NCBI RefSeq assembly: GCF_910592395.1
Contig: NC_088316.1
Coordinates: forward strand, 19,842,001-19,906,000
DNA length: 64,000 nucleotides
Reading direction: 5' to 3'
Source: Lineus longissimus
Taxonomy: Eukaryota; Nemertea; Pilidiophora; Heteronemertea; Lineidae
The notes beneath the pieces were generated by a model. The model searched no databases. It worked only from the letters and a program-made list of their open reading frames with translations, and had not been told where the DNA came from. Shown one piece after another: positions 1-46,003 of the stretch. The translations under genes were made by a program, and so were the position numbers. The number at the start of each line of letters is the position of its first letter. Within the stretch, counting starts at the first letter, position 1.

Positions 1-83
1 CAAGCTTACCAAATAGCTAGAGGTTTGTCATGGACCATTGTGTTCGATAACTGATACGTCAGGGGAAAGGGGCTACAACTTAC

Positions 84-18200: not shown

Positions 18201-21200
18201 GGGAAAGAAAGGACCCAAGATGAATAAAAAAACGCTGTCCGTTTCAGTTTCATCTGGGCTATCAGTTTCAAATAAGATAGTGAAGACGATGATGATTATG
18301 ATAATGAAATATAGAAATCTACTCACGGTATTCACATCTCTTTGTTTCACGATTCCATCGTTCCGCTGGATTCGGGCAGTCTAGAATAAAATGTTGTTGC
18401 ACTGTACTGTAAAATGTCTTGTTATTCCTCAGTTTTATGATAGTTACTTTATATTGCGCAACATGACGTAGTGATAAAAGACCCAAGGGAGAAGTACCAC
18501 ACAAGACCTCGCAGTACGGTCAGAACATCTGTCATCATTGCGGAAACGTTTCTTTTAATTACTAGTAGGTAATCGGGTTCTCGATTTTATCAACAGCCAC
18601 CAATTCCAAGGATTGGAGATTCAAAGGACACGAGTTCAAACAAGCTATGTTGATTTGGCTTGATGTCTTAAGATTTCAGGGTAGAGCCAGGTTACATAGA
18701 CAGTCATGTATCATGAGAGACCACAAAGCTGACAATACCCTCAACCTCTTGTTTGGTTGATATCAGCTTAAGACAGAAGCTGTTGCTGGACATGATATGA
18801 CCTTGAGGATATCATGGTCAAAGGGTAATCCCACATCTGGGTCTTACCTGGTCTTGGCATACACTCATCTGAAAGGTAGATGGGACAGTTGCTAAACAAC
18901 GGTATTATCATGACCTAATCGGATTTGACAAACTTTAGATGTACAGTTACTTTCCATGTCATAAAATACATTGTATAATTTATCATGTTACAAGTTATTA
19001 AGTTGTTAGCCGGAATGTCTGATAACAAGTTAGACTAACCTTTCTTGTAGTATTGCCGGCGTAGTCTATTACCCCTGTATGTATTTTTAATCTCTGCCTC
19101 AGTACAGTATCCCTTTTTAAGGTAGCACTGGCCAGAGTAGTACTGGAATCCCCAACAATCCTTCCTGGTGTTACACTCGACCATACACGTATCCAAATGG
19201 ACAGCTCCAACCGTGACGAGCGCGTATTGAGAGCAATATGCAAACCTTAAATCATATTCACAATCGCCCTCTGAAACAAGAGAAATGACATGTCAGAACT
19301 AGCAAACTGATGGCCAGCCAGCAGGTATGAGAGCATTAGTTACGTATCCACTTTTGATAATCTATATCACGAAAATCAGGTGCATGACTTGTACAGCAAG
19401 GTAAAAACACATATACTTACTTGGAACCTTTCCAGTGCAGTGAGCTGTAACAGAAGAGTACCACAAATATATATATTTTCTTACTGATTAATATCATTTT
19501 AGAACTGATTTCACTTCACGAGATATGTTTATTTATACTAACATAACGATTTCTGTTCAAAACAAAGTACATTGCTGTATACGTTTGACTCTTATTCATC
19601 TGGCTTAGTCACAATACTCATTTTCAGGAATGACTTATTGGCTGAAAAGTCTCCTGAATAGGAGTAACAAAAATTGCTCATATTCAGGAATAACTCCAAT
19701 AGAAGCTACAGTGGAACCCTGGTCTGCGACCTCCCCGGTAACGCGACCACCCCCTTATGACGACCAAGAATCGCTGGTCCCTCTCTAATTACCATTACGA
19801 GGCCCCCGGTAACACGAAATTTTTCAGAATTTCGAACTTATGAAAAATTCAACACTGAAACATGAAAAAATTTCTAAGTCCAAATATTTTTTTTTCGCTT
19901 CACTTTTTTCTGCTCAAAATGAAAAAACATCATCAGCCCCAAAACATCTTGGCTTTGAAAATTTGTCAGAATTTTGAACTTTAAAAAAACCTCATCTTTG
20001 AAGAAAGATGACATCATTTCTGAGTCCAAATATGTTTTTCACTTCTTTTTTTCCGGCTCAAAATGAAGAAACATCATCAGCCCACAAAAATATTCCGTTT
20101 TGCTCTGAAGGAAGGATGAAAAAATTTCTAAGTGCAAATATTTTTTTTTACTTGTTTTTTTCTGCTCACCCCCGTAACGTGACCATTCAACCTCGGTCCC
20201 ATGAGTGGTCGTGTTACCGGGGTTCCTCGGTATTTCAAAAAGGCAGGATCAACTCTTGCATTTCATTTGAAGAAAGTGCAAACGCAAGGCAAATTATAGT
20301 GCCTGTAATATCTCTTCCGTAAGGAAATACTTTAGTAACTCAATGTGACCCCTCTTTGCCAAAACCTCCAAACTGCACTTCACTCACTTGATAATCTGTT
20401 GTACTGGCTGTACGCTGCCTTTCCCCTATATGCGGCTGTCGACTTGCTCTCCTCACAGAATACTTTTTGAAGATAGCAGCGCTTGGAACTGTAGTGAATG
20501 CTAAGGCAGTCTCCAACATGCGAGCACTCAACCTGACAGGCTTCTGGTGTTGACAGGAAATGTTTGATCACATTAGCGCCACAATGTCCGTTGAAGTGGG
20601 CGAATTCACACATCTCAACTGAAAGAAAAGGCGGACTATTTTATGACTGTTAAAGACATCTATACCGCAGGATGACTGTAGAACATAAAACCACTACTTC
20701 TCAGTGGACACTGATTATGCTAACAAGGGTCATGGTAAGGCTCTCAGAATACACTTTATACTTCCAGTATGCTACCCTGCAGGGGCTATTGTAACAGTAA
20801 CCTTTAGAAGTTAGTCATGAAAACTACAAATTTATCAAGAAGAGTTTTGTAGTTATGCGCAGGCATAGCAGCATCAGCTTACCTCGTGGTCGTGGGCAGG
20901 ATTCTGCAAATACAATACAATCACCAGTGAAATAAAAATCAATTAGCTAATTGTAAAATGGTGTCGCAATTGCGCATGGTCTGTCACTCATTGCGCTCTG
21001 GCTGTATATCTAATTTCATCTCACTCATTGCGCTCTGGCTGTATATCTAATTTCATCTCACTTATGTCTCCTGTATATTTCTAATTCATCATCACATTAT
21101 CTTGACATTAACTTTGCTAATTCTATATTCAACATTAATGCGATTGAATCAATACAAATTAATAAAGATTTCATCGTGGTAATGGGAATTTAAGAAACGT

Positions 21201-24200
21201 ACCCGACTTAACATATTGGTTATAGGTCCACGGCTTATCTTGGTATAGAAGTTTCGTTGGATCCTCACACACGGCATTTACAGCGTACAGATAACAGTTC
21301 CGGTCTTTTGCATTGTACCAGAAGCCACCACAGTCAAGTTCTGAATCGCATTGAATCTTACACACGTCCAGCTCAACTTTAACATAGGTCCTGTAACCAT
21401 TTCCTGCCGTGTTGCATTTGCCCGGTTGCATGGTATATTCACAGGTCTTAGCTAAACAAAACAAGAGTTAGGCCGAAATAAGTGCAAGGGCGAGGTTTAC
21501 AATGATAGAGTAACGAAATGTAGAACTATCATCAGCATATTCTCAAATCTCGCGATTACCGTCATCATGCTCATGCGATTAACTATTCCCATTCACTGCA
21601 TCTTATTGAGGGTAATCTCAATTTTAGCAAGCATTTGTAATTGTTACGCTTTGCTGGATTGTCAAAAAAGCTACTGGGGCTTCCTAAGCAAAACACCACC
21701 CAATGCGCTTCGTAGTTACTTACTAGGTTCTGGAACATTGCATGTCTTGTCTGAAAACAACAAGTATAGAAATAGTACAAAAAAGTGGTTGAGAAAGACT
21801 TGCTATCGTATGACTTTTCCCTGATTTGTCATGTTTGTTGAAACGAGCAGTGATCGTTCAGATAACACAAAGATTATTTGTTCACGTATATTTATGTGTA
21901 CACTTAACATCTTAATAGATTTGATTAGGAACATCTATCTTTGATGTCAGATGACCAAGTTGTATGGTCTGATTCTAATTATCTAATGATAATTAGATCT
22001 TTTTAAATGCGAGTGTTCTCGGTGTTACCCACTCCTCTACCACAAGGAAGAGCAACTAGTTGCACCCTTTGCCGGTTTCTTCTAGCCTGTTGGGAAAGAC
22101 CTAATCGTTCTTGGTTACCAACTGAAGAACAGGATGAATTGATGGCTAGTGGGCCACTTCTGGAACATGAGGCTTTGTAAATTACAAGTAACTTACCATC
22201 TTTGTAATACTCTCTGTATAATTTATTTCCTATTCCTGAGAGTTTCACGTCTTTGATATGCTGCATGTAACAGATATTGGTGGTGTAGCGGAAGCTCAGA
22301 ACACTTGGTATGAGAGATGCCTGTGTTTTGCAAGCAGTGTAATCTATCGTGTTGAGTTGCTGATGTACATAGCTGGCGAAATAACCGTATTGTAAAGAAA
22401 ACGTGCAGATCTTCGCTGAAAAACGATATGGATTACGCCCATTAGTTGTTTGACCCTTAGAATGAATGAGGTGATAAATGTTTAAATGAGAGTTCAGGCA
22501 ACACAATTTGCCATACTATGAAGCAAATGGATGTGGTAATGACACATTCAGCTGCACGTAGTACCTAATTGATATTCGTGAATACTGATTTGAAGTGAGC
22601 ATTCTACGTATACTTCATAATCCATATTGGAGACGAGCCTAAACTCATTGTGTAAGACAATGCAAGAGACTTATTTGGCCTACACGAAGAAAGTGTACAG
22701 CTACGAATCGGGGCATGTGGAACAACTGAAGATGATTAGCTCGCTCAATTACACCAAGATGCCACTCTTTTTGACTCTTTGTAATAGGCCTGTCACACCT
22801 TGACGATTTAGCCAGCGTATGCGGACGTATCAACATTTCTCTAAAACGCTGGCATACGCTGAACTAGCGATGTTTTCTTAAATTTTGGGCGTAAACATAG
22901 CGTATTCATAACGAGTTGGACGTATACATAGCGTATTCATAACGAGTTGGGCGTATACATAGCGTATTCATAACGAGTTGGACGTATACATAGCGTATTC
23001 ATAACGAGTTGGACGTATACATAGTGTATTCATAACGAGTTGGACGTATACATAACGTATTCATAACGAGTTGGACGTATACATAGCGTATTCATAACGA
23101 GTTGGACGTATACATAACGTATTCATAACGAGTTGGACGTATACATAACGTATGAGTAACTTATATAAGCGTTTCGATGACTTATAGATAACTTATACCA
23201 ACGAATGCTTAGCGTGTTGCCGGCGTTCACAACTTATGCCCAATGATAGTCTAACTTATGCATAGCGCGCGGCAGTGCACTCGCCGACGATCACGTGTCG
23301 TAGCCTATAAAAAGGCTGCTGCTCGACAATTCAAATCAATACCGCACAAGACATCGCAGTATCCCCCATCTCTCGGATGAAATGGACATCTGCTCACCAT
23401 GGAGTATGACGGGTTCCTCCTGTGAACCCCATTTTTATATACCGATTCCCCTAAACGCTGCCAATACGCCATTATATGTAGATGTAAGTTAGAAACACGT
23501 CCAGTAAGTTCTTTGGTCGTCCGGAACACGTCAAATACGTCTACATACGTCAATATGCGTTGGAGATAAGTTTCACATAGGTTCAAAGCACGTTACTCAT
23601 AGGTTAGAAATAAGTTTTGGGTACGCTAGACATTGGCTAATATTTATAAAGACTAGTAAATGCTTTTATCTAAAACTCCATGTACATTTACACTTGGCCT
23701 TTGTGTACAAAATTGAAGTAAAAGCATTTGCTAGCCTTTATTCATATCACCCATTATCTCGACGTATTTCGACTTATGAGTAACTAATACAAGTAACGTG
23801 TGTGAACGTGTGTCAACGATCGCATAACTTATGGCGCGCGTATGCGGGACGTATGAGCCATACGCTAGCATAAGTTTTTCGACGACCTCGCCGTACTACG
23901 ACGTATACCAGCGCGCTTCAGCGTGCTCTTAACTTATACAAAACTTACCCCAAACTTATTTGACGTACGCCAGCGTATTCGCCAATTTTTTCAGACGTCG
24001 GTATACGCTGGCTATATCGGCAAGGTGTGACAGGACCATAAGGTATGAAGAACTAATAGAGGCTAACTCTGAATGGTTGTTGAAAAATCTAGTAATTTAT
24101 ATGATCTTGAGACTACTAACCTTCGGGGCAGTTACCTGAAAGTAAACCTAACAGCAATTAGGGGATTTTGAACAGACATGAATTAACTCTAAGATGAAAA

Positions 24201-27200
24201 TGCCTAAGGTTTCAAACCTGTATAAATACAAAATGTACAATCAGATTTGAATATGGCATATGCTATGAATTCGTCGGAATCTAAGTAAAATTGAAGTTAT
24301 CAGTTGTACCAAACAACGATATTCACACAAACATCAATGACCTACCCTTCTTTCTAAACTGGTGATATGTGAGATCCGTTTTCGGGACTAGCTCCTTTGG
24401 GTCACAAACAGCATCTTGGAGATAACATGTCGTCCCCCTGAATTGGAAGCCCTTGCAGATAGAGAAGCGCGAACACTCGACTATACATGCCAGGAGGGTC
24501 ACGGTGATGGTTTGGTAGACATGGCCTGGGCACTCGGCTGTGGCGTGGTCAAAATCACACACTTTCACTGGAAAGGAGGCGAAGCTGTATCAGATAACTG
24601 ACTAAAAAAATTGAAACTATATAGCTGCATTGGACTCAACTATGAGGGAGGGGAACACAAACTATAAAAAAGCCCACATTGTCCATACCTTCTGTGTTGC
24701 TATGTTTGGCGCACAGATGATTTAATTCATCTCAGCAATGCCTTCATGAAGCTTTTTGGAATGGTGTCATTCTAAAACAATGTTCGGTTCTAGATATTCT
24801 GAAGATGTGAATGGGGCATTATACACAAATACGTTCAAGAACCAGTATGGCATTTTCTTACCGGCTTTGATGGGGCAATTTTGGCCATCTGAAATACATA
24901 GAAAGATATATCATTCCTTGAAGTAGAAAAAATGACGGATTGTGTCCAGAAACATGAACAGGTATCTTGTTTCTCTCTTTAGTCTTACTCCACTACATGT
25001 TCCCACGATTCCTTGCAGCCTTCTCAGATAAAGATATCGTACTGCCAGAACAGCTAAGGCCGACCTTTAGCTTTGTACAGCTCAAGGCGACGATTTCAGA
25101 CATTGCCTATTGTGTGAAGATATTGAGTTACCGTTTATTTAGTTGGCGCAGAAAGTTGAAGTTAATGAGGTTTTCAGAAACGGGATAGTTCTCTATCCTT
25201 ATTCTAATTATTGTGGTATTAAGTGGTGTTAAGTATTATTATTAATCAGGAAGATGAACAATCACCCCAGTATGATCGCTTAACGAAATAGCACATGAAT
25301 TTTATTTTCGCCTTTTTTTGTTTTGCATGCCCTTGCCATGCTGTCATAAAACAATATGCATATAACTCAACCTACCCTTCTTGGTATACATGTTGAACCG
25401 ACTGTCACCCGCGTATGAGAATTGGGTAGCAGTACACTGCTCTCCGTGGATATAGCAGCCTCTTTGGTAGATGGTGTAGGCCAAGCACTTCCTACTGTTG
25501 TCACACAGCACCTTACACGCATCTTCGCCGACCCTTGCCAGGTAAGAGGCACTTCGTGAGCAATACCGGTTTGCATGGGTATATTCGCATTGTCTTCCTG
25601 TTCTTGGGTCAAGCGTAGCTTAAAACATAAAAAGGCGAATATTTCAGTGATAAGAAGAGCTCAAATTAAGGCTTACCCTTTGCAATTGGGGTACATACGT
25701 AGCTTGTGATTGAATAAAACTACTATACTGGTATACAAATGCTGTCTGTGATACCCTTTCAGCAGGGTAAGTGTCGCCTCGGCAATTTACCATATAATTT
25801 ATATCGCATCAATAGCCGAATGGAGGACTGCGGGAATGCGCAATTTTAGATTTCTAAGATACTCCTTCAACAATGATGATGATGATGCAGTTGCAGGCCA
25901 TTAAGAGATTAACAAAATTGACTCTACTGAGCTTAAATCATCAATAAGAGCTAAAGACTTACGCGTTTTAATGTACTGCATGTACAACCAAGGTTGATTC
26001 GTGTATCTCAGATTCCCTTCAGCACAAAGGACATTCCTGAGGTAACAATTCCTGTCTCTGGCGTTGTACTCGAATGCTACACAGTCAATGTAGTCTTTAC
26101 AAAGTGACTTGCAGGTTTCTAGGCAGACATCACTATCAACTCTAAAATTCTTAGCAACACAATTTCCAGGGATTTCCTTAAAGGTTGAAACTTCGTCTGA
26201 AAGAAAAGTCTTGTTAAACTATCTACTTTAAAAAAACACGAACAGCGAGTGGGCAACGTCTGTATTGGAACTCTGCGATTTAATTTGACGTTTTATATAA
26301 TTTTAAACACGCGATTCAGCGCGTATGATATAAGGAAGCATTTCGAAATGGGATAGTACCGGAGAGACTGACCACACAAATATCACGAGATCTCGCAGTG
26401 AGGCACTTGGTTTACGGGACTGAGAATAACTTACCATTGGAGAGTGTTCCTGGGCCTGAAGAAGAGAAAATATCGTACTTGAATCTCAGCGTTTTTGTAC
26501 TTTTTTGAATTAATGTTCTAGCTTTCCACGGTGCACAATCCTTACAGAGCGTAATACTTTCAGAAGGTTCCTTCGTTCAGGCAGTTGTGTTTTCGTGCAG
26601 TTTTATTCACCGCCATTTGTCATCAAATTCATGCATGCTGCAAATAAATGTGCGGCTAATTTTTTAGTCACTACTTTGGTGTTGAAAGGCACAAGATGAC
26701 CACATCGTATTGTGTTTTTGTAAAAAAAAATTTAAACCTACCTTCCTTGGTGAACCATTGGTAGCGCGCATCATTTTTTTGTGTGAATTCCTTCTCTAAG
26801 CATCTACGCGTCCTCATGTAACAATTGCCTGCATGCAGCAAAAAGCCAAGACAGCGCGTCCTTGACAGGCATTCTGCTTTGCAAGTTTCAATGGACGCGG
26901 TAGCAATTGTTTTGAGGGCAGGGGGACAGTTGCCAAACTTTGGGTAAGGCTTGAAAAGGCCGAGTGCATCTGTAAAGGAAGAAAATCATATATGGTGATT
27001 TTGGAACAAAAACCTTGACCATGGACATATGCAAAGGACTGCTCATAGCAAACAACGGTATCACAGCTATAAAACCAGACAACTCGTCTAAGAAGATCCC
27101 GCCGCGTTCCATTACATTTGCCTGTTTGGTATATGGCCATCTTTAAAAAACAAATTTGCGGGAAAGAATTACGGAATGATTACAGTGATTAACATTTTTG

Positions 27201-30200
27201 TCATCCTTTCTTAGAGGTCGGGACTTTCGGACCTAAACCATCTTGGAATGAGGTGCCAAATAGTGTTCCTGGCCAGAGTACCCTGGGTCGTTTTAAAACT
27301 GCACTTATTTCATCATGTATTAATGTTTTATTGTTTTATCATAAATTGTAAAGCGCTTAGAAGTTTTAACAACGTTAAGCGCTATAAAAATGTTTTTAAT
27401 AATAATAATAATTTAATAATAATCTTGAGGCTTCAAGGGTTAAACATTTAGAGAAGTTCCGATGTACTCTTGTTTGGAAATAAGTAAATCAATTCGTATA
27501 TGTTAACGATAGATGAGTCAATATGTATCTAAACTCGTTTATCTCATTAACCACATCTATAAACAAGGATTCCTGGTGTTCAATCAATAATCACGAAGCT
27601 GTGTCGATGGGGTAGATTGAAACGGTTGATCAACTTACTTTGAGGACAGGATCCACCCTCTGAAAAAGAATAAAATGAATTGCGGTGTTAAAGAATTACA
27701 CCTGCTGATGTAAGGGGGTGTCGATATACAAATTAAAAAATAAGCAACTTGATCATAAGAGTCAAGCTTTCGTGTTGGAACGATTGCTAACAAATCCCTT
27801 GACTTCTTCCTTTCCCCTCTTTATTGCAAAGTATTAGTGATGCCGAATACGCTGATTGGTGAAGGATTTTCAAGAACTGTGGCATAGAAAGTTCGCATAC
27901 CTTTCTTGGTAAACTGATGGTAGAAGAAATCTGTGGGTGTCTTCGTCAATTCTGCTTCGCTACAGACGTAGTCTTGCAGGTAGCACTTATTTCTATTGTA
28001 GACGAACCCTTTGCAGTTTCTTGCTTGCGAACATTCGACCATGCAGGTCCAGACAGAAGAAACCAAGATGTAGGCATTCGGTAGGAGGTGCTTGCTGCAG
28101 TAGGCCAGTTCAGTGTGTTTGAAATCGCAGAGTGCGGCTGAAGAGCAAGATAGAAGTTAAAGTCTAAGCAGGTATCAAGGTACTTATTCAAATAGATGTT
28201 TGCTCATATGGATATTTATTACGATCATTCTGATGACCGCATTGCTAAGGGTCACCAATATTATGGTAATCTCAGAGTCAAAAGAATTTAAACATACTTA
28301 CTTGGTCAAAAGCGGCAAAGCAACCATGAACAAGCAAGCTGAAGGAAATACTGATAGCTTTTCCCAACCATTTTACTGTAGGGGTTTTGCGTGCACTGCC
28401 AAGACATTTTTTTGTGTAACTTACATGCGTTCGTTTGTAGATGAAACACCTGATTATAGCTGCGAGTATCATTACTACATTACCTGTCAACAGTTAAATA
28501 CAATGATAGGATACCCGACCTTTGGTCTATGAAATTCAATTGATAAAAATTGTACAACAGATATACACCCCTTTTTGCTGATCACACCTTAGAAGATTTA
28601 CAGTTCTTTAAGAATAACATCTCAAAGTCAGAGCGACTTAGGAAGAAGACGACCAATTACATCATGTAACATGTACTCACACTGTTGCCGTATTGCACAT
28701 GGCTCTGAAATAAAAAAAGAAAACCAGCACATTAATGTATGCTCTGCATCTGGCCACAAGGCTGTTACCTCCTTTCGCATCTCCTGTGAGACAGTTTGGG
28801 GCTACACACCTAGAATTTATCAAATGCTGAACAATGGCCGATCAACTTCTGTTGGAATAGTTCGTGTCTATGTAATTTAATGTGTGGTGTATTGATTGTG
28901 AAGGTCTTTTTACGTGTGCTTTCCTTAGGTTACATTAAGGGTCAAATGAGAATGAGGGAAGCAAATTGTTTTTAGAATGATTAGCATTGCTCACCTAACT
29001 GTTTGATTGATCAGATACTGTTTGATTGATCAGATGCAACGATTTCATTTTTGAAGAAAAAAAGATTTTTGGAAGTTTTCCAACACTCCCACCATAAGCT
29101 AAAGGAAAATGAATTGGAGTATTTTTAAAGTATACTTACGAGTATCTGTCTTTACGTAATAGTTCTGTTCCGCCTCTCCCCACTTGGAGGTCTTCAACTT
29201 CGATTCAACCGTGATAGTATTCTGAATATAGCATTTTCGGTCATTGTGTTGGAAGGCAGCGCAGTCTGGATCATTGCTGCATTCAGTTTTACATGCCTCC
29301 AATCCAATATCGGTGATAGCTCTCACATTATATCCGCCGTTGTAACCATTTGCGTTGAAGTACTTGTAGGTGCAAACACGAGCTAGAAATAACAAGAAGG
29401 GTGGTTTCCCCTCAGCTGATTAGTGCAGTTCATGAAGTGAATTCATGTTAGTTAAGGGAATAGAAATGGGTAGGCCAAAATATCATAGATTCCATCAGTC
29501 TGTTAGGGCGGTTGGGTTGTGATGATGGTGGGGTTGAATGGTATAGCAGCTTCGACTGATGAATTGTTCTGCTTAGTTGATGGTTTTCCTATTATTCCTA
29601 CAGGCAGGATTGTATGGAAATCACGATCCACCAGCATTTGAGACTGACATTGTACCATGTAACTCAGTGAAAAGTACCTCAGGATACTAATACCTAGAAC
29701 CAACAGGCTCATTTCGGCTCATTCTGGCAAAAAAAAAAAAAAAAAATGTATGTGATGTATTAATATTATAGGTCAATTAATTGTAAAGGAGCATGGTGGT
29801 GTAATTTGCCGGCATGTTCCTAGCAAAAGTTCCATGTAATGACATACGTTTGATTAAATAATAAAACAAAAAAAAACACACCTCATTTCGGCATGGGGAT
29901 GACCAAAACAAAACAGGCAACTGGTTTTGGTCATGTTTACACAACTTGTACTTACATAAGGGAAGCTTTAGGGAGGCTGCAAATGAACGAAAACACAAAT
30001 TATGTTATTTGGAATTGAATAATATTCCTTTTTTTGTTGACACTGAGTGCTGCTCTTTAGCACTTTCTTATCATCGGAGGCAATTTGATATTACTGTATA
30101 AATGTGTACATGCACGTGAGGAAAACTCAGAGCCATGAAAATTACGATAGCTACGACAATATCACAATAAAAAGTACTTCTCATCTGAGCCTTACGAAAT

Positions 30201-33200
30201 CTATAGTACTATGTTATAATTGACATTACCACGAAAATGAGCAGCATATGTTGGAAAACAACAATCGGTCCGCTTTTATCTTGACAGGAAATGAGTTCCT
30301 TCATTTCATGATAATGAATTATACAGAAGTTTTGCATTCCCACAAATATTTTCAACCATGTCTACAGGCAGCCGTCCTTTTTATCATATCAATAGCTTAC
30401 GTGATCTTAAGTATTGAAAAAAGGTCCAGTATTTGTCCGGGTACTTCACGTCCTTTTCTGCGCATGCTCTATACTGGAGATCACATTGGAGAGTTGAGCC
30501 GGTATACTTGAATGTTCGACAGTCTAATTCTTTCTGACATTGAACCTTGCAGGCCTCCAGGGTCAATTTAGTATATACTTTAAGTCGGTAGTTGTGAGGA
30601 CACTGGCCCTTCTGCTTTATAAAGGTATCTTCAACGACTGTAACGAAAGACACATGAATCAGCAAAGAGATATATTTTTGCATTTAACTAAGTTTTAGTT
30701 GGTCTCACATTTAGTGTTAGTCAGATTTCCGAGTGTCGTTCAATTGGTGGATTGCTAAAAAGGATTCGGAGCTTATCTACCTGTTGTATGGGAAAGTCAT
30801 ATGTGAGAGGAATTGGTGCACTCAATAAAGTTTTCCTGAGCAGTTCAACGAGCTAGGAATGGGCGGCCCAGGTACCGGATCGGATAAGAGCAAATGTATC
30901 TAGCCCTGACCCTTTCCCACTGATAATAAAGGTGGAATCAAGACCAATGCACTTGAAGGGTTCGATTGATCAACACTCGTCAGGTCCGTCCTATAGTACT
31001 TACATTTTGGCACAAACCCATTATCTGAAAAACAAGATTAGATGCGAGATAAAGAAAGCCGAAGTAATGCCGTCCAGTAAAGAGATCAGCTTTGTTTTAA
31101 CCATTGGCCATGAAGGTGTGCATAAACATGATAAAGTCGAGGACGGTTGAATAGTGAATGTCAGTTCAGTTATCGGTGTTCACTTGATAGACACAGCATA
31201 TATCATTTCACCAAATGTATCATTCCAATGAACCATAAGTGTTCTGGCTGCCAGCCTTGATAAAATGACTAATTTGAGATGTGGCCCTAGATTCTAATGA
31301 GAAACATGCTTACTTTGTCTCCTAAACTGCTTGTACAGTTGTCTATCCCTGTATTTAAGCGCGCTATCTACACAGATGTGGTACTTGATCCAACACTTCA
31401 GCGAGTTGTGTTGGAAAGAAAGGCAATCTTTTCTCTTTGTACATTCTGTCTCACAGGCCTCGTATGCGATACTTGAATATGAGGTGAGGTCGAACCCTAC
31501 ACAATTGCCTATGACTTCAATTGCTTTCATACCTTCATCTGCAAAATATACATCGGCACTTTAAATATATAATCCGTTTCATCAACATCATTTTCAACAA
31601 CCACAGCAGAAGCTGCGTTACATTACACTGTAAAGTGCACTACAAACCTAGCTTATGTTTCATACGTTAACAAAATCTATAAGAAAGGAAGATGTTCGGG
31701 TGTGAGCAGTTAGGTAGACTTCATAGAACAATGATCCTCTTCAGGGTAACTTTTATTATGAGGCTGCATTCATCACTCGATGAGGTATTACCCATCGATG
31801 GTTCTTGTCGATTCCCTGCGGGAGTAGATTCTGGTCAGGAGTCTTTGCAAGTTGACTATTTTCGGTTAAATTCGGCGAGAGGCTTACCCTTCAAACAATT
31901 GCCTGTAAATTAAAACAGAAATGGTGAATAACACAATTAAGACACGGCATACCGACTGCGATGGTATTCAAAATAAAATTCTTGCCAAAATATTGGACAC
32001 TAGTTGGTCATAACCTCCAGTCTTCGTGAAGAGTAAGAACTTCCTGATAGTGAAATTTGTGTCACATTGGTTTATATTGGAGACAGATTTTATGCATTTT
32101 AAGATTTCACCAAATTAGTCGCAGTCAAAAGCTTTAAATATCTCTATCTTACCTTTCTTTTTGAAGAAGAATCTCTTAGGATTGTCCACGTAGGTCAGCT
32201 CTCCTTGTTCACAGTTACCAAACAGAAGCACGCAATGGTTGAGTTCATAGTAATTGAATCCTGTGCATGCCCCGTCATTAGAACATGCCTTCCTACATGC
32301 ATTGATGTCCATGTTTGGCATGATTCCTCCGCTGTATCGCTGTTTGATGATCCGACCAGGGCAGTATCCGAGCTGTATGTCATATTTGCACTCGTCAATA
32401 TCTGAAGGTGGAAATAACAAGTCTATTGCCAAGTAATATCACTGTAAATCATCGAAAACAGTGGTAGTCATGATCAGAACAAGGCTTCTTTGTTGGAGAT
32501 GAGGGGATGAACAGCTCCAAACAAATAAATTCCAAGATACAAATATCAATGGTTTATTATCATTTACGCCATTGCAGCGTATGTAGAACAAATAGATGTC
32601 TAAATAAGTTCACACTGTTTCCAAGAGTTACTGACAGTGTCGACGCTATTTAGCCGGTCCTGTGTATGTTTCACATTTGTCTTTTGCACGTAAGATAGGA
32701 CTTTGGTACAGGCGCCCCTCAAGCGGTTAAATGCTTTTAACACTGTACCTCTTTACCCAAATAAAAATAATTGTAAATTGGACTAATTGAAACATGCCAT
32801 AATTGGCTCCTTGTTTTACCACTGAAACATTTCTGTATGCTATTGAAATAAGATTATCTGCTTAGAACGTTCATACTGACCGGGAACCTTTCTACATGAT
32901 TCTGGAAGGAAAAGAGAGAAATGGGTCATCAACGACATCAAGGCAGAGGGCGACAGTGAGTGCAACAGTGCATTCTAACTATAATACAGGAGTAAGTTAG
33001 ATGTACATGTATTTCACTCAGAGCCATTATAGGCATGTGGCGCAGGTTTCAAACATAACTCAGTCCAACAAGCCAAGCCGTTAATTTGACATCACCAAAT
33101 TTCGCAAGCAATACTCACCGAAACTTTTTTTGGTATACTGGTTCATCTTGTAATCGCTTCTTTGCTTTATCGCAGTTGTTATACAGGCTTGATTATTTAA

Positions 33201-36200
33201 CTTGCAATCTCTGTCATAGTAATAAAAACCTAGGCAATCGTCAAAGCTGTCACAGGCCATCTTGCACACATCAAGGTCGATACCGTAGAAGGTCTTGTAG
33301 ACACCTATTACACACTGGCCTTCCTTTTTGTCGTAGTCGCACACCCAACCTAGAAGGAAATACAAAACCTGAAAGATCTGAGGCTCTCTGCTCTAAAATG
33401 GTGCACAAGACAACAACGTGTTCTGAAGTGAATGCCAATGTCCCAATAAAGATTGTCCGTTAAGATTTTAACGAAGATTCTCATATCTTACCTTACTTCA
33501 CAAGGAAAGGTAAGAGATAGATGTTTAAAGCTATATTCTGCGTTTAATATAGGAAAATATTAAATGAAAAAGAACGAAATTCTCGTTAAATTGCTCCGAG
33601 AAAATAGTAATGTATGTAAAGCTCTCCTGGGTCGGTTGCAACATTTGATGATGATCATCTTCATAGCCTTGTGAAGTTCACCAACCAAATGATAATGAGA
33701 GTTACTTACGTTTCTTTATGGTTAACCGTTCTGCAATTCAATAAAGATGCAAAACAATAATACATTTTTGAGATGTACTGCATAAACAAAATTGATATGA
33801 TGACATTTGTTGTACAAAGTGAGAATAGGATACAAAATGGTTGGGAATTATCAACGTCAATTGAAACGACCAGTCGTTGTACAATTCCCGCATTATCAAG
33901 TTAGGGTTTGTGATAGAAATATCATCAAGAAATAACAAAGATTGGCTTACGTTTTCTGGTGTAGTAGGTCCACGTGGTTTTCTTGTGTGTGATTGTTGTC
34001 CCTGTACACGTTTTCGACATCAAGTAGCAGTTGCGATTAGCGCTGTTCCTGACAAAACCATTGCAGTCAAGGCGATCTGCACACAGGGCCTTACATGTTT
34101 CCACATACATGTTCCCGTAAGATGCAAGCCAGGAGTCGGCACAGAATCCATCTTCCTCGGTGAATTCTACGTCGGTTTGATCTGGAAGGAGAAGAACGGT
34201 AGCATGGTAAATGATTGAGGAATCAACACCGGACTGGTATAGGTCTCTGTTAAAATAGACAGGGGGTGTGTGGTCAAAGCTTGAGGTGTTTTGGCTGATT
34301 CCATCCAACGGTCACCAATTCAATAACGAGAGTACGTTTTATTTTCAATTCTTTCAATTCTGTCAAACGCACATTCTGATAAGTAAGCCACAAAGAAAAA
34401 TATCCGGACCGGCGAATCCAATACAACACGCGTCGTCCATATCCCGATTGAAACAAAACAGTCTCCTTCAGTAAACTCCTACTTCGAAACTCAGAAAGTT
34501 ACTTACATTTCGATACGGTGCCGTCATCTGGAAAGAAAATGGAACCAATCCATGTTTATTTCTGTTCAATCTTACCCTTTTTCCCAAGGTTTCCTTATAT
34601 AAACTCCTTAACAACATTTATATCTTTCGTTGTGACATCTCCTTTGGCTTGACATGCGATTAGATGAGAGATGTAGATAATTCACACCTTAGTTTTTCAG
34701 TTAACGTACTTAATGTTGATTACTTAAAGAGTGGAAAATTCCCTTATGACAGCCACGATTTGTCGAAATGAAGAACTCATGAGCTCTTGCAATGCTGAAT
34801 GAACTACAAACATTATATTTTTCTGAAAATTGTCGGCCTACTTACTGAGTCTGTAGAAGTACTTGTAGACGGCAGCATTCTGGCCAGTCTTGCCGAGAAG
34901 TGTGCTAGATTCCTTCTGGTAATTATAAATGAAGCAAGTTTTTGTTCTGAAGCCAAAACTTCTGCATATGGGGTTCTGTGCACACTCTACCTCACATGCA
35001 CCAATGGTCATCGAACTCCATGAGTTGATATGAGTTCCGCTGATGTAACCAACATCGAATTTCGTCTTTATCTCCGTCACTGGAAATAACGAGTTTCTGG
35101 TTAAAGCTGATATACATGTATAAAAACCGTAATGGCCAAGTAAGAAAAAACTAACGCCAGTCCGCCATGTTTTGAACGACTGGTCAGCCATGTTTCAAAC
35201 GTCCTCAGATATGATAGACTAGTTCCTGAAATGAAAAACTGAAAAATATGTTTATTTCCAACAACGGCTTTATGGCATAGTGGACAAGACCGTAAGGATC
35301 AAGTGGCGAGGGTGCCGTGTTCGAACCCACTCGAGGAATTTTTTTTTTTTTTTCACGAGAGTCACTCTGTGACCCGTCTCGTCAATGAACTTGTTGTTTG
35401 TGCAGTCAAGTGAGACCTGTCGCTAGGTGTCTATCATGTTTTAAGTGCAGTTGGTCGTTTGGTTGTCGGGCGTTTGTGTTTTCTAACTTGGCCGTTAGGG
35501 TTTTATGCATGCATGTTAGCTTTAAGGTGAAATCGTAGCGCATCACTGTCAATTATAATTGTAGTTTTTATGTTTTCTTAAACTGCAATTCCAAAATGAC
35601 ACATAAGTATGACTCGATCAAAAGGAGCTTTTTCGTCCTTTAAATGCTTACCAACAAACATACAAACTCTCAAGTGTTCAATGGTCATCACTGTATTCAA
35701 AATGCTTTATTACATTGTGACAGTCATAATTTAGCTTTTACTTACACGACGGACAATTGCCTGTGGAATAGAGGAAGAGGTAAGGTTAGGTTAGTTAGAT
35801 AAACAATATGACGCCATCTTTGATACAAATAAACACAGAGGCACATCATGTTTGGCTCAATCAGGTAGAACAAGCTCTACTTGAAACAGGCTTCGATAAA
35901 CATATGACAGTGTCTCCGAAATATGATCAGCATGTTGGATCATGGTCTGCATCCTTGTATTGAAATGCTGCCGAGGGACAACCGAACGAAGGTTATTTAT
36001 TACATTTGTATTTGTTTTTCAACGGTTTTTTCAACCTTACCTTTCTTTGTGTAGATTCTGTATCTCATATCTCCCTTGTACGTTATCTGCGTATCGGGAA
36101 CAGGGGTGTCGAACAACTTACAAGCTGCCCTTGTGAATTCAAATGCCTTGCATGATGTAAACATGGAACACATTCTCCTACAGGAGTAGAAGGATGTAAA

Positions 36201-39200
36201 CACATAAGATCCGATTGTTTTGCCCGCGAATCTACCAAAGACTGGTTCGCTGTATTGACAAGAAGCAGCAGCTGAAAGGTAAAAGACTAAAATCCTGAAG
36301 TCCGTCGAAATCTCTGTGTGACATGTTCATGCAACCAGACCGCGAGATATGTTCCCCACGTTCCTATTGTTGAATATTTGCCGATTTTTATCTGCTTGCT
36401 GCTGTGACACATTCTCATATTACTGAAACAAATTAGGATCAAGAGGAACATGGACCTTCTGGATCACTAAGTAAGCAATGACTATCGAGACGTTATACTC
36501 ACGGGGCTTGTTCCTGACACATGTTTCGGCTAAAAAAAAACACGACCAGTTGAAATCGGTTTTATTTATGCAATGGAGGTTTGTGCTCTTTTACTTAACG
36601 AAAGGAAATAATAAAGTAAAGGCATCCCAATCATTCTATGATTCCATCGAAGTGGCACTAGAGAACCCTTATCGCTTGTTAGACTGGGCCCTGTTAATTC
36701 AGGATGTAGTAAACTGGAGGCACTGAAACAATTAATCACTGTATCCGCAAGGTGCCTCAGAACGATCTCATGCAGACTGTTGATTTATGAATTTTGCACT
36801 TGTTACGGCCGGATGTTTACATCGGGTCATTGGTGGAACCGAACTCTGATACGATTAAATAAACTCACGTTTCTTTGTGTATTGTTGATATCCAGCCGTT
36901 CCTTTGTTAATGAGCTTCGCATCGGTACAGAGTGAAGACTGTATGCTACAAGACATAGTCGACTCACTAAAGAAGACGCCGACACAATTCTCCCAGAAGC
37001 TGCACTCCTCCATACAAACCTCTGCACTGATGGAATTATATGTTTTCAGGTTCGTCCCTGCACATTTAGCATTGACCTTGTCGTAGCTGCAGGTTTTTCC
37101 TAAACAGAAAATAATCGTTTTTGATATTAGAGATCATAGTCAAATAAACTTGAGGTAACTTAATTCAAATATTACAATCCCACCCTGGTATTTCATTCGG
37201 TCTCATTCAGCCCTTTGGTATATACTTAGATACTTCGCAACTCGTTTTGTATGAATCTCGGGTCAGCTTATTCTTGTTCACTGATGGCTGCTTAATTCAA
37301 GACTTTTGAGACAATACTGGTTCATCAGGCGATTTCATGCCAGAAGAACCTGGAGCACATCCACCATCCACCATGTATGCCACTATGTTTTCAAAGACGG
37401 CCCTGCCTTAAATGATACATAGAGCGCCACAGTTTGGATTATCTTAAAAAGTGAGTAAATGAAAAGTGGCAACTCGGTCATTGACAGCTGGCAACTTACC
37501 AGGCATGAACTGAACAGCTGAAAAACAAAACATGATACGTCAGTCTGCTCTGATGTTCTGGTACCCGATAAAGAGGATATCGTCTAATGTCATGGGAGAA
37601 CCTATATTAGGTAATGTCCAGTAGACATTACGGAACTCGCAAATACTTCGTCACGCCGGTTCCGTCGTAACGGAGCTCAATAACGGCCTTAAATTTCCCC
37701 TTCACATACATACATAATTGATCTCTGGACGAATCTAAAGCATTGCAGTTTTCTGGAAGCGTCCCCGGGGCCGATAAAAGCCATGTTCATGGCGTAACTG
37801 ACGGTCACCACTTGCTATCAAGGTGATACAGAAGGACTAAAGTAAGGGATGCAGCAAAATAAATTAAAATGAAATAATAATAAGAATAATGTTCTGGGGG
37901 TGTTTACTTACGATTCTTCGCATACTGGTTATAAGCTGCATTTGTCTTGTGGCTGAGCTGAGCATCAGTACAGATTTTCCACTTCAAGTAACATTTATTG
38001 GCACTGTACCTGAAGCTGTTACATAACGACTCGGATGTACACGAACGTTCGCAACCGCCCTCGGTTAATCCACTGATGGTGCGAATGTCACTACCGCTGC
38101 AGAAGCCTGCAGATTTGACGTACTTGCACGGTTGCGGGTGGCCTAAAATATATATATATATATTTTCACTTATTTTTGATTAAGAATCTTTATGATTTGC
38201 ACATGCATAATGCTGAAGTCGTCACAATGGCTGATATGAATAAAGACTAGCAAATGCTTTTATCTAAAACTCCATGTACATTTACACTAGGCCTTTCTGT
38301 ACAAAATTGAAGTAAAAGCATTTGCTAGTCTTTATTCATATCACCCATTGATACAACACAAGTACTTCGAATGGGAAAAAACAATAGCGGGATTGAACCT
38401 GGGTGCTGTGATGCGTATGTTGAAGTCGAACCGCACATGAACTATACAGCTTGATATATACACAGTCAGTCCAGATAGACTTCATATGGTACGGTGCTCT
38501 TTTATATTTTTATAGTTTGTATTAAAATCAGATTTATATCTAAATCTAAGGTAATCCCATCAAGTTCGTTTTCGCATTTTATTCTTGGCTTCACCTACCT
38601 TCTAGACTACAAACAGCTGAAAAAGAGCAAAGACGATTCAAAGTGATTTTAAAACTAGCAATAAAATGTGCCGAGGGAGGTTGATTTTGCGTGGTGATTG
38701 ATGCGAGCATTTGTACATAGCGATTTGTCCTGAGCTAACCTCTTCTTAGGCTTATATGAGCAAAGAAAAGATGACCGATGTAGCCAAACGTTTTTGGATA
38801 TTCCTCATACCTCTTTCGATACAATAGACAGCTGGACAGATCATGACTTTTCAATATGGCGGGACAGAGAGAAACTGGTCAATTGGTTTGTCGCGTTTCC
38901 TACATATTGAGAAAAAAGGTCAAATATGGAAACACTCAAAATCGCAACATAACTTAAATTCAAGACCACAGTAGGTCGAATGTGTATCGTATAGTGTATA
39001 TACAATTACCAAATGGAAAAAATCTTACCAGTTGAACCGGCACCTCCCACTGAAAAATGGATCGAATGTTGTAATAAAAACCGTGTTGAATATAAACCTG
39101 TTTCATATTTCTACTTTTACACCTATCGTCTTCGTTATCGAGGTCACTTTCTCATGCTGTCGCATCAGTGCGCATCTGAATACGTTTCAGTCTTCTGTAT

Positions 39201-42200
39201 CAGCAGTAAATAACGAACACGATCTCATTCCAATGATAAGTATAAGAAAACAATAATGGTAAGAACAATAGAACATCCCACTACAATCTTTTGAAACAAA
39301 CAACTTAACTTAAGTAATAAACAAGTCGTCATAAAAACATTACCCCCTTGCGAAGTCCCCCGCCAGGTCATGAATTTTGATATCATCATACCTTGCTTGT
39401 TCCAAGTGCGGTAGATGAGGGATGGGGTGAAAACATTTGCCATATTTATATTCTGTGCGGCCCCAACAGCTTGAGACTTCAGATAGCAGTAGGAGTGTGA
39501 AGTCCTGTATATGACACCAGCACAGCCAAGTGTCACGGCGCATTCGTACTTGCACACATCTTCGGTGATTAAGGTGAGAGTCTTCACGGCGAATGAGGCA
39601 GTGTATCCATAACCCTCGAACTTAAAGTTGCAGGCAGATGCTGCAAAAGAATACGATGAAAGGATTTGTCCGGCGAAAAAAAATCGACATTTGCTTTCAA
39701 CAATACGTCATAACTGGTCTGTTTACATTTTCGCAATCCCATGGAAATGAGGTATTACCGAGTTTCCGCAAATCTCACGAATATGAATTACGAATTATGA
39801 ACTTATAATTACAAAGGTACTCGTGTTCCATTTTGCAGTCAGCTTTTGTCCAGTTCCGATCTTATTGAAAAACGGACGCTGCGTCAATTCAGACTAATTC
39901 GTAACGACTCGGCCAGTTCATCAGCACGAACTCAAAACTCGCTGCACCAAGAAATTACAGTGGACTGTTAAAAAGAACTTTGGATCCCGAGTGACCCTAC
40001 TAAGGGTAACGGACGTTGATCAGCTGAAAAGCCAATGATCTTGTTGTCTCATTCTCGGATAAATAGCAATTCGTAATTCGTAGTTTGTAATTTGTGAGAT
40101 TTGCGAAAACGAATTAATCATGTCTGGGGTCTGTTTACATTTTCGTCATCGACAGATTTTTCCAAACTACATAAGGTCAAATCAATTCAAATGTTTGAAG
40201 AGAAATCTGATTTTGGATTATAATCGAATATGCCACATGGACGTAAATTTAGATCCAGCTTTAAAGGAGCAGGTCGAAGAAATATGTTCGCCAACAGCTG
40301 TCACTTTTATCAAATTGTGTCAAGCAAAGACTGGTTTACATATGAAGCTCTCATCTCAAATTATAAGAGTCTCGATTAATACTAGTTATTAATACTGGCT
40401 AGTAACCAATTTGGCCATAAGACGTCTATGTGAATATGATGAATGTGTCTCTGGTACACCAACTGGCCTTTCGAAATTCACTTATGAACATATATCAATC
40501 GATTACGTCGACGAAACAAGATCCTTACCACATGAAGCCACTCATGAAACCAAAGAACAAGAGCCCTACGCTCCTGTAACACAACGCCTTTGGGGCAAGT
40601 TTCTCTTTATATAAAACGTGTTGAGAAAAATCTTTTGTGTTTTCAGCACTTCTCAATTTGCCAGCTGTTGCTTATTGTGTTGTGTCGCGCGGGATACAAT
40701 AACAGAACTGAGTCGAATCCGCAGTGTCGCAGGGTGGCCCTAGAAATATTTCAATCAAATTCTTAACTGATCACTTTCAAACAACACACCACATTTATTT
40801 TCAGGCATACTTACGTGGTGTTGGTGACACTGAAAAGACAATTATTATATCATAATTAATTTTTGTGAGCATATCGAAAGACTTGTAATATTATGTCTCA
40901 TCAGCAATGGATCCGAAAGAGAAAAAATCCGTTCTATGAAGTTTTCGTTTTTCTCAAAATGGAAAGTTTTTTTCATCTTTAAAACGAATCAGGAAAGATA
41001 TGAAAGACGAAACGCCTGCATCAGTCCTTCTCTTTACAGAGATGCATACTATACACCCACATCATTGCATGACGTAGGCAGAGAGCTTCCTGCATATTTA
41101 TTTCAAGTAAGCCGTCACAAAATGCTCTCTTTCAAACCTAGCTTCTCGAAATCGTTTCGACTTGTTCTTTAATTAGCTTTTTCCATGAGGGTTTAAACAG
41201 CTTCTACTGAACATCTGAACTCTCGGGAGCGAGATCGCGGCATCATCGTCTCTATGACCTTTGCACCCTGGTTAAGGTGGGAACCAGACTTATCAGGACA
41301 ATATTCCCCACGGCAGCCTCAACTAACATATCTTGACCAACTGAACATCAGATCAAAATGATAAGTGCACTATTTTGTCACAAATGGAGGCCGGCACAAA
41401 ACCTTTCAGTGGTCAGCCAAGGGTTTTACAAATGAAACCACTCGGGACCTAAGCCATTTCTTTGCAAGCTGTGAGGATGGAGAGGTGGTATTTCAGCTGG
41501 TTTCAACTCGAGCGTTTAAGAATAGTAGCTAGTTGAAACAACCATCATCGAATGAATAATACACCAAAAACTAAAATCAATGCTTCTGGTTTAAAACTAT
41601 TTTATTTGTTAACGTATGGTAAATGTTGTCTTAGAGCGCATAAGCTCAAGTGCTATATTATATCGCATGTGATAATCTAGAAACCACCATAGGATCACAG
41701 TATGAAGATAGTAACGAGACATATACAGTTATATCAACAATATAATATACGAGTAAAAACATGATCGTGTCAAGTGTAATCAAGTGTAATCTTCTTTTTG
41801 TCTTAGACCTTAGAGAAAATAACGTTTCACGTTTGGTAAGATGAATTCACAAATGGATATTTCAGACGCGCTACGAATACCCGCACTGATGACGGTCTTC
41901 ATAGGACCTGAAAGCAATCAGTGTGTTTTGAAAAAAGAGTTTAAAAAAAGATCAATTGGTTAATATCTTGGACATGGCTTAATATTTTGGAAATTGGCAA
42001 TCACCATTTATTACCTAATGATGTACTCTTTCTTATGACACCAAGAAATCCAATTTACTGTCACAGATGACTGAGCACGAACCAGTTCAATCAACCATGT
42101 CAGATCTGGTCTTTTTAAACATTTCTACGATATTATCTGTTCGATGACAGTTTTGACATCTTTTTAACCTACTGTAAATAAAATGCATCATTGTTGTAAT

Positions 42201-43785: not shown

Positions 43786-46003
43786 TTAAACTTGCCGAAA
43801 GTCCGTCAGACCAACGTACGTCGGTGGTGGATGAAAATCTGAAAAGAGAAGTATGATTAATATAATAATTATCAACATTTGTTAGCATATCGAAACAAGC
43901 GTCAAAATCAAACACTTAGGTAAGTTCTGGAAATAGAAAATGAGCAATGGTAACATTGTTCTATCAAGCCTGGCTAAGTGAAGACGTTTCGATGAGAACT
44001 CACCTCCAGGGGTTCCGTTTAGTTCAACGTCACACATCGTCAGGTAAATCGTTCCGCTCAGGATGATATAGACTTATCTGCCATATCTTGGTGTTGTTCA
44101 TTTCAGGGTGTCAGTCCCTGATGCATGGCATTGTATGTCTCCAGGAGAGCCGACAACGGGCTGACTGTCTATCGTAGATCTCAATTTTCTGAACTCAGAT
44201 AATGACGTCTAACTCCTGCCACACGGTCGTCGTGCTGCTCGACAAATAAGATGCTTGATTTCCTCTTAATAGATCTTGCGAAAGTGTACGCTGAACTGCA
44301 AGCACATGCTTGAAAGGCCAACATGTTCTGTTCCAAATTCTGTTGAGCGCGGAGACATATACATCCACCTATCAGGAGTGACAAGGGTTTTCTAGGCTAC
44401 TCTTACCCGAACCGTCAGAACAATAATTTGATTATCGCTTGGTTAAACGGACAAAATTGGGCGAAGTATGCCTGGTGTATGACAAGACTATGCCTGTGGT
44501 AACTTGGCATACGCCGCCAGATCAAGAACAAAAGCAGTGTTACTTATTACATGCTTGGAAAAATTATCATCACATGATTCATCACATGATGAAATACGAA
44601 ATTTGAATACACACATGTAAAATAAGAATATAATTCATCACATCAAAAGACTGCCGTGAGGGAAAAACTCATTGTCACGTTTGTCAGGTCCACCTTCGTA
44701 TTTTGATGATTTACCCATGCGGAAGAGAGAGCATAGCGTTTAAACTTACCATTGGCTCTACTAATGATCAGCTTCCTAAGTTCCTCGATTTGGGCCTTAC
44801 CACTAACTGCACATCTCATCAGCGTTGTTGCGGCCAGCTTTCCCGTGAATTTGTACCCAGTACTTGTAGGCCTGAGTCCAACGTACAAATCATTCAACAT
44901 GTCTCGGGGTCCTATGGTTCCGACATTCTTGATGAAAACATTACCATCGACCCACATCACCAAATTGCCAGTTTGTTGACTGTAGCTGATCCCTACGAAC
45001 GACCATTTCTTAGTTGGTGGAGCAATATGAAATTGCGAATGGCTGCGTCCAGTACGGGCGACCAGGTTGATGTAAAGCTTGCCTCGATACATCCACATGT
45101 GAGTTCCGGCCGATCCTCGACCTCTCCACTCCACGATTGGCCCGTCTCTAAGCACGTCTTGGTAAAGATAAGTCGCGATTGTGAAACTATCACCCTCAAT
45201 ATCCAGCTTTCCGTCACTGGTTATCTTGACGTAGTTATGCCCGGTGAAAACCCATGCGTTGATACCTTCAGGGCCGGTGGTGAGAGATGTGGCTCCTACG
45301 GTAGATAGGGTTAGGCCACCAAGCCCGCTTGGTTTGGACTCGATGTTAGGTCCGAGAAGAAGCCACGAGCCACAGCTGGACAAGCCAGCTGAAACAGAAA
45401 TCAAACATTTGATCGACTAATACTAAGGCATGAAGGGTGTTTTACAAAAGTAGTCATTGTTTTACGAAGGTAGTCGTCACCAAAATTTGGCGAACACTAA
45501 ACTTTTAGATTCAAATTTTGAAGTCATTTTACAAAAATAATGAATTTATAGGAGAGAGATGGTGCATCGCTCTTGTGAGAACTGTGATTAAAAGTTTGTC
45601 AGATTTCAGCATCTATCGTTCCATCCGAAACAAAACTATTTACTGTTGTCTGGCTCTGCTGGGTGGATTGACGTGTGTTTTATGTATAATATGATACTCC
45701 TCAGCAGCTAAAGACACAATTTTCAAAAATTTCAAATGATTAGATTTTCCACATTTATTCATTGAAGTGTTTAAGTAGAATAGTCGGACGTTATATTCAC
45801 CTTACAAACCCGCCCATTAACGCATTTGAAATTACCGAAATGTATCAAGTATTGACATGGGCTTGGTACCAAAAGGCAACTAAAATTATCAGAAACTGCT
45901 GCCGGGAATTTTGAGGGAAAATTCGACTTAACTTACCGGAGGGAGTGACAACCGGAGCCCATGAAAGGACAAGGACCAAAACTGGCATCCACAGGAGAAA
46001 CAT
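43786..46003 (-). CDS. Secreted laminin-G/concanavalin-like protein, four exons
   Basis: Exons: 45937-46003 (signal peptide MFLLWMPVLVLVLSW), 44750-45388 (213 residues), 44004-44072 and 43786-43838 (terminal, ends FRQV then TAA). All joins are phase 1; total 828 nt, 275 residues. The large exon has the look of a LamG/pentraxin-like jelly roll: FTIATYLYQD, GPIVEWRGRG, MWMYRGKLYINLVA, W-x-FVGISYS, GNLVMWVDGNVF and a late GKLAATTLMRC. This fold usually binds carbohydrate or protein ligands outside the cell. The two small 3' exons are supported only by splice sites and frame; read-through of the large exon would give an alternative C-terminus. The start exon is paralogous to that of the giant gene. 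Confidence 0.78.

Follow-up and report, generated by a model that had tools for sequence, protein, structure and literature searches.

The window analysed in this study covers 64,000 nucleotides (nt) of the genome of the nemertean Lineus longissimus (assembly GCF_910592395.1, contig NC_088316.1, positions 19,842,001 to 19,906,000). On its minus strand, from window position 39640 down to 19040, it harbours a tandem array of 20 exons of 219–249 nt, each encoding a PAN domain and ending in phase 1 on both sides, which alternate with micro-exons of 15, 18, 21, 24 or 27 nt that share the same 1-1 phase. A sequence-only reading of this region had pointed to a covariation between a cysteine in the micro-exon and the first cysteine (C1) of the preceding domain. 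Our analysis makes it highly probable that this pattern reflects the joint loss of the partners of an ordinary disulfide bond, C1–C6, in an unusual exon architecture found genome-wide, with a separate micro-exon following most domains.

A padded query retrieved a single close protein, annotated by NCBI as 'IgGFc-binding protein-like [Lineus longissimus]' (P0121, 4276 residues), whose cluster consists of 1 sequence. Its residues 1–1525 correspond, letter for letter, to the spliced product of PAN 3–20 with micro-exons 3–20 and a linker fused to the PAN 15 exon (linker 14), and 72 pieces of its residues 4–3206 map onto the minus strand of the window. The 5' end of this model is probably incomplete, since it begins at a methionine inside micro-exon 2, which leaves PAN 1 and PAN 2 (the sole exception to the cysteine pattern) outside, and since no signal peptide is visible by eye at its start. 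Downstream of the PAN array, P0121 contains VWD, C8, TIL and EGF modules, and its continuation at window positions 82–18381 (minus strand) includes, besides these modules, many exons of 14–19 codons that mostly encode two-cysteine repeats. In the open reading frames of the window, VWD and C8 pass the Pfam cut-off and TIL stays below it (17.2 vs 24.5). The gene, of which the window contains a part, would encode a large protein in which VWD-C8-TIL-EGF modules come after the tandem PAN array. This protein is presumably secreted, perhaps as a mucus or adhesive component, and the PAN array would play a structural role in it. The joined 20-domain protein scores 136.1 bits with the PAN_1 profile PF00024 (cut-off 21.4), with 11 stretches passing individually, and its comparison with a protein database yielded 1604 candidates, 0 of them at E 0.001. 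A genome-wide PAN_1 search returned 141 matches, 0 of them in this window, and thus under-reports this PAN subfamily.

Micro-exons between the PAN exons

The micro-exons were evaluated with splice matrices for which the PAN exons alone served as training set and which are blind to cysteine; these matrices were applied to the 19 introns and to 700 nt following PAN 20. Among in-frame candidates of 12–33 nt, the micro-exon listed in the sequence-only reading ranks highest in 19 of 20 gaps, and no such candidate exists in the remaining one, which follows PAN 14; if candidates of any length are admitted, the listed micro-exon ranks first in 17 gaps and second in two (after PAN 10 and PAN 19). When compared to dinucleotide shuffles, 18 of the 19 micro-exons outscore 40/40, with NCPE after PAN 16 being reached by 5/40, and a cysteine is contained in the best shuffled candidate in 150 of 800 cases. 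An earlier, stricter splice scan had found no candidate after PAN 4, PAN 14 and PAN 18.

The linker of PAN 14, previously regarded as undetectable, is found at a different location, where the 21-nt segment TLDPRT opens the PAN 15 exon and is read as part of it by the NCBI model, and its loss could therefore be rejected. Its counterpart YIDPRV, following domain C9b_14 of the sister array C9b (C9:1.684-1.712 Mb), is a separate 21-nt exon (score 13.8), which suggests that TLDPRT was probably fused to the PAN 15 exon through intron loss. We also rejected a better cysteine-containing micro-exon hidden in intron 2, as the top candidate of this kind scores 7.8 compared to 20.5 for VQFMP. The candidate GGAGST after PAN 1 is absent from the earlier list; in C9b, NGRTSS (23.2) is followed by ACPIS (21.6), and PAN 1 may be followed by two linker exons, one of them devoid of cysteine. 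Between the SPTP micro-exon and PAN 1, from window position 40739 downward on the minus strand, a possible alternative last exon reads PPCDTADSTQFCYCIPRDTTQ and then terminates in a stop codon. A tandem repeat of ~30 bp is recognizable by eye in the intron after PAN 16 (window about 22880–23160).

Cysteine pairs and the position of C6

The alignment of the exons confirms the presence of C1 in 14 of the 20 domains and its absence in PAN 5, 6, 9, 10, 13 and 14. As described in the sequence-only reading, a single cysteine is found in the micro-exon of 13 of the 14 C1-bearing domains, PAN 2 (VQFMP) being the exception, and none in those following C1-less domains (0/5, or 0/6 if the fused linker 14 is counted). 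With the micro-exon assigned to the preceding domain, C1 and the linker cysteine C6 are both present in 13 of the 20 domains and both absent in six, PAN 2 containing C1 alone, and within PAN 3–20 the rule holds in 18/18. The recurrent cysteines of the aligned domains comprise C1 (14/20), Ca (15), C2 (20), C3 (19), C4 (19), C5 (20), Cb (15) and C6 in the linker (13). In this core, C2 and C5 are found in all 20 domains and C3 and C4 in 19, both being gone in PAN 17. Ca and Cb, which are both located within the PAN exon, are jointly missing in exactly PAN 1, 4, 5, 11 and 17, with no exceptions. Fisher tests, which treat domains related by descent as independent, give p values of 1.8e-4 for C1/C6 and 6.4e-5 for Ca/Cb, with C1 and Ca being unrelated (p 1). 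Together with Ca/Cb and C3/C4, which both lie entirely inside the PAN exon, C1/C6 makes up three pairs whose members are lost jointly, the mark of disulfide partners. With each unit's own linker counted, the number of cysteines is odd in PAN 2 and PAN 14 only and even in the other 18 units.

Structure modelling was carried out for PAN 16 as the single domain, folded alone and together with its micro-exon. Already the PAN 16 exon by itself is predicted by AlphaFold to adopt a confident PAN fold, with a helix packed on a five-strand sheet (predicted local distance difference test score, pLDDT, 95.2). In the model including the micro-exon, residues 3–78 superimpose (VIA-align) on residues 92–177 and 182–267 of the factor XI chain, which places residue 3 (C1) on C92 and C182 and residue 76, the micro-exon cysteine, on C175 and C265, the partners in C1–C6 disulfides of factor XI. 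This superposition supports the proposal, already made from the sequence, that the micro-exon encodes the closing cysteine partnering C1. Its position in the model is that of an ordinary apple-domain C6, which would be bonded to C1 as in the standard apple disulfide.

Sister arrays and the descent of domains lacking C1

A genome search with PAN 11–13 identified five sister arrays, designated C9b, C2, C1, C11 and C10. In the six arrays, 103 domains were scored by one fixed rule, which took as micro-exon the candidate with the highest splice score, provided that it reached 13, and as C6 any cysteine in the last part of the PAN exon, in the micro-exon or in the first part of the exon that follows; 9 of 112 profile matches that start after profile position 6 were excluded (array C9b 2/21, array C1 1/15, array C11 6/17). 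C1 and C6 are both found in 80 domains and neither in 13, whereas nine contain C1 only and one C6 only; in the five arrays other than the window, the respective numbers are 67, 7, 8 and 1 (p 1.1e-5). A separate micro-exon of 12–30 nt reaches the required score after 82 of the 103 domains, and in 12 domains (C2_03, C2_10, C2_16, C2_23, C1_03, C1_04, C1_06, C1_07, C1_08, C1_10, C1_13 and C1_14) C6 is predicted to be part of the PAN exon itself or of the head of the next exon. In the array C10 (C10:14.188-14.216 Mb), the 11 PAN exons are near-identical and, where scanned, a 12-nt micro-exon encoding HCG comes after each of them; this array is a recent tandem expansion.

The relationship between domains was investigated in a tree of the window, from which the columns of C1 and the linker were excluded, and in a joint tree that omits 10 of the 11 near-identical C10 rows. 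The similarity of the PAN domains in the window shows a period of four (4/5000 permutations), and the window tree groups PAN 6, 10 and 14 (with 18) and PAN 5 and 9 with modest support (64/78, 64/85 and 82/86). A single clade of all six C1-less domains is not rejected by the approximately unbiased test (p-AU 0.22), and such a grouping is not needed. The joint tree pairs domains of the window and C9b as sisters at 12 of 19 matched positions. The six positions without C1 in the window lack it in C9b as well, as does the C9b counterpart of PAN 20. Parsimony requires three changes for C1 and four for C6 on the window tree, and five for C1 on the joint tree. The grouping in the trees and the C1-less positions common to both arrays indicate that the six C1-less domains stem from few losses that predate the split between the window and C9b. 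In C9b_02, the linker SCVFP takes the place of VQFMP in the window, and the exception thus probably arose when PAN 2 of the window lost its C6 at a later time.

Interpretation and relation to known proteins

In the proposed mechanism, the repeat unit consists of one PAN exon and a linker micro-exon of 15–27 nt and, because all exons are in phase 1, such units can be duplicated and spliced in frame. The micro-exon would contribute C6 to the PAN/apple domain before it and also connect this domain to the one that follows, and the C1–C6 disulfide, as suggested by the location of both residues in the modelled fold, would join the ends of the domain. In few ancestral domains this bond would have been lost, both cysteines together, and the duplication of blocks and arrays would then have copied bond-less domains to their present places.

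Several observations weigh against this mechanism. The structures matching with the highest Z, plasminogen and HGF, align to residue 74–75 and end short of the micro-exon cysteine at position 76. PAN 2 contains an orphan C1 without C6 and PAN 14 an extra cysteine, resulting in seven cysteines in either unit. A phylogeny-aware count in the window leaves 1 independent contrast on well supported branches and 3 on all. In the six arrays, 9 of the 89 C1-bearing domains break the blind C1/C6 rule, and a non-blind second look provided a cysteine for seven of these nine, three of the seven on candidates scoring 7–10. Strong cases are C9b_01 (ACPIS, 21.6) and C2_27 (GC donor, 15.6), fair ones C1_05 (12.6, resembling SCPVPF after C1_09) and C1_02 (other donor, by eye) and weak ones C9b_07, C9b_12 and C2_02, with C2_24 remaining without rescue and PAN 2 of the window (WIN_02) being a genuine exception. 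A lenient control (score of at least 7) finds a cysteine candidate in 7 of 14 C1-less rows, and the weak rescues thus carry little weight. At a score of at least 12.5, C2_22, the C6-only row with its cysteine one place off (KGCSGF), is alone among the C1-less rows in showing such a candidate, and a strong micro-exon without cysteine is present in 11 of the 13 rows that truly lack C1.

Among the alternatives, there is next to no probability that the micro-exons are chance AG...GT stretches chosen for holding a cysteine. Open short runs from AG to GT are common and NCPE is matched by some of the shuffles, but the cysteine-blind ranking places the same micro-exons first in nearly every gap, and they are backed by identical residues in the NCBI model across PAN 3–20 and by counterparts in the sister array. 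It is very improbable that the micro-exon cysteines bond mutually or to adjacent domains to stiffen or cross-link the chain, as might be proposed from their location 5–16 residues before the next cysteine (30 after PAN 4) and from the odd counts in PAN 2 and PAN 14, in light of the even number in the other 18 units and of the superposition with factor XI that sets this cysteine at C6. A similarly small likelihood is attributed to descent as sole cause, with C1-less domains and cysteine-less linkers copied as neighbours and their cysteines structurally unlinked. Such a process would account for the clustering of C1-less domains in few lineages, at positions common to the window and C9b, and for the prevailing length of 21 nt in their linkers (6/6 in the window), but C1 and C6 match a known disulfide, Ca/Cb and C3/C4 are lost pairwise likewise in other domains, and the sister arrays keep C6 with C1 whichever exon carries C6.

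The sequence-only reading had further suggested that splicing could switch a domain between two forms, closed by C1–C6 when its micro-exon is included and open, with C1 as a free thiol, when the micro-exon is skipped; we see only a slight chance for this. Such a switch would be compatible with the 1-1 phase and the lengths in multiples of three, which make each micro-exon skippable in frame, with the large share of domains in all six arrays whose micro-exon is separate by score, and with the pair of candidates that follows PAN 1 in both the window and C9b, only one of which contains a cysteine. However, exon-shuffled repeats need in-frame symmetry for duplication anyway, and the sole protein model found, alone in its cluster, includes every micro-exon from PAN 3 on. 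Where C6 is fused to the PAN exon, as predicted in 12 domains, it is not skippable alone, and since the PAN exon is predicted to fold confidently by itself, an open form would not be the expected outcome of skipping. The proposed switch is thus unsupported and the micro-exons are most likely included constitutively. In an unlikely scenario, splicing would determine for each domain separately whether its terminal disulfide forms and how it is linked to its neighbours, and could for example adjust how stiff or cross-linked a secreted mucus or adhesive is.

For the favoured co-loss of C1 and C6, the covariation as such is expected from textbook apple-domain chemistry. The unusual part is the micro-exon that carries the closing half-cystine, unit after unit, in six arrays of one genome. 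The arrays offer a natural series for the bulk recognition of micro-exons, the joint loss of disulfide pairs and the possible skipping of linker exons, and they hold a warning for annotation, as PAN arrays read without micro-exons would seem devoid of C6. In searches of open-licence PMC papers, no publication on PAN micro-exons was found, and the papers retrieved on microexons and disulfides include none on PAN domains by title.

The apple domains of factor XI and plasma kallikrein share the fold, the order of cysteines and the C1–C6 bond tying the domain ends. Factor XI also resembles the array in its tandem arrangement with short linkers, six residues separating C85 and C92 compared to five between C6 of PAN 16 and C1 of PAN 17. 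In contrast to both proteins, most domains of the array contain the extra Ca/Cb pair, their number is about 20 and C6 resides on a micro-exon; the passages found in the literature searched include none giving the exon borders inside the apple domains of factor XI. HGF and plasminogen differ, as their superposition stops before the micro-exon cysteine. In passages of PMC9249922, four core cysteines are described as strictly conserved in the PAN domain of HGF, and in this respect the domains of HGF and plasminogen resemble those lacking C1 and C6 in the array. The WSC domain of yeast Wsc1 and human Kremen, in passages of PMC9024836, combines a PAN-like fold with two core disulfides and a bond that ties its first strand to L5, a long loop (C27–C86); the Ca/Cb pair of the array may be the analogue of this bond. 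It differs by a further bond within the loop, and a PAN-type C-terminal linker exon is not described in these passages. The VWD, C8, TIL and EGF modules in the downstream part of the NCBI model are shared with IgGFc-binding-protein-like mucus and adhesive proteins of marine invertebrates, and limpet adhesive proteins with vWFD and EGF are described to resemble IgGFc-binding protein in passages of PMC7333891. Unlike in the present gene, a long PAN array on the N-terminal side is unmentioned for the limpet proteins, the term 'PAN domain' occurring 0 times in the main text of PMC7333891.

Table 1. Exons of the PAN array and their positions in the window (B, blind splice ranking; N, NCBI model)
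Feature	Position	Strand	Properties	Evidence
Micro-exon upstream of PAN 1	40815..40829	-	15 nt, SPTP, no Cys	splice scan
PAN 1 exon	39392..39640	-	C1 present; phase 1-1	
Second micro-exon candidate after PAN 1	39029..39049	-	GGAGST, 21 nt, no Cys; likely counterpart NGRTSS in C9b	score 14.5
Micro-exon after PAN 1	38599..38616	-	VCSLE, Cys as C6	B
PAN 2 exon	37912..38142	-	C1 present, 7 Cys; phase 1-1	
Micro-exon after PAN 2	37500..37517	-	VQFMP, no Cys (exception)	B; N begins at Met inside
PAN 3 exon	36869..37099	-	C1 present	N
Micro-exon 3	36503..36529	-	ETCVRNKP	B, N
PAN 4 exon	36041..36271	-	C1 present	N
Micro-exon 4	35746..35760	-	NCPS	B, N
PAN 5 exon	34846..35079	-	C1 absent	N
Micro-exon 5	34507..34527	-	DGTVSK, no Cys	B, N
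PAN 6 exon	33951..34181	-	C1 absent	N
Micro-exon 6	33710..33730	-	RLTIKK, no Cys	B, N
PAN 7 exon	33119..33349	-	C1 present	N
Micro-exon 7	32881..32901	-	SCRKVP	B, N
PAN 8 exon	32153..32401	-	C1 present	N
Micro-exon 8	31888..31902	-	NCLK	B, N
PAN 9 exon	31314..31538	-	C1 absent	N
Micro-exon 9	31004..31024	-	NGFVPK, no Cys	B, N
PAN 10 exon	30401..30637	-	C1 absent	N
Micro-exon 10	29956..29976	-	SLKLPL, no Cys	B, N
PAN 11 exon	29140..29382	-	C1 present	N
Micro-exon 11	28681..28704	-	PCAIRQQ	B, N
PAN 12 exon	27901..28137	-	C1 present	N
Micro-exon 12	27639..27659	-	GGSCPQ	B, N
PAN 13 exon	26742..26969	-	C1 absent	N
Micro-exon 13	26435..26455	-	PGTLSN, no Cys	B, N
PAN 14 exon	25963..26196	-	C1 absent, one extra Cys (before helix)	N
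Linker 14	25598..25618	-	TLDPRT, 21 nt, no Cys, fused to 5' end of PAN 15 exon	N
PAN 15 exon including fused linker 14	25376..25618	-	C1 present	N
Micro-exon 15	24862..24888	-	GQNCPIKA	B, N
PAN 16 exon	24346..24567	-	C1 present; folded alone and with micro-exon	
Micro-exon 16	24121..24135	-	NCPE, Cys as C6; weak by splice score alone	B, N, superposition
PAN 17 exon	22197..22415	-	C1 present, no C3 and C4	N
Micro-exon 17	21724..21750	-	KTCNVPEP	B, N
PAN 18 exon	21203..21451	-	C1 present	N
Micro-exon 18	20883..20903	-	SCPRPR	B, N
PAN 19 exon	20388..20618	-	C1 present	N
Micro-exon 19	19421..19444	-	HCTGKVP	B, N
PAN 20 exon	19040..19270	-	C1 present	N
Micro-exon 20	18848..18868	-	ECMPRP	B, N

Upstream of the array, the minus strand contains a Laminin-G-like exon at window positions 44643–45416 (26.9 bits vs a Pfam cut-off of 27.6), which is absent from the NCBI model. 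A ligand-binding domain of a neurotransmitter-gated ion channel is located at 52344–52730 on the same strand, with adjoining minus-strand open reading frames resembling, by eye, the membrane part of such channels. The plus strand contains at 56904–60195 an element of the LINE (long interspersed nuclear element) type, with endonuclease and reverse transcriptase relatives.

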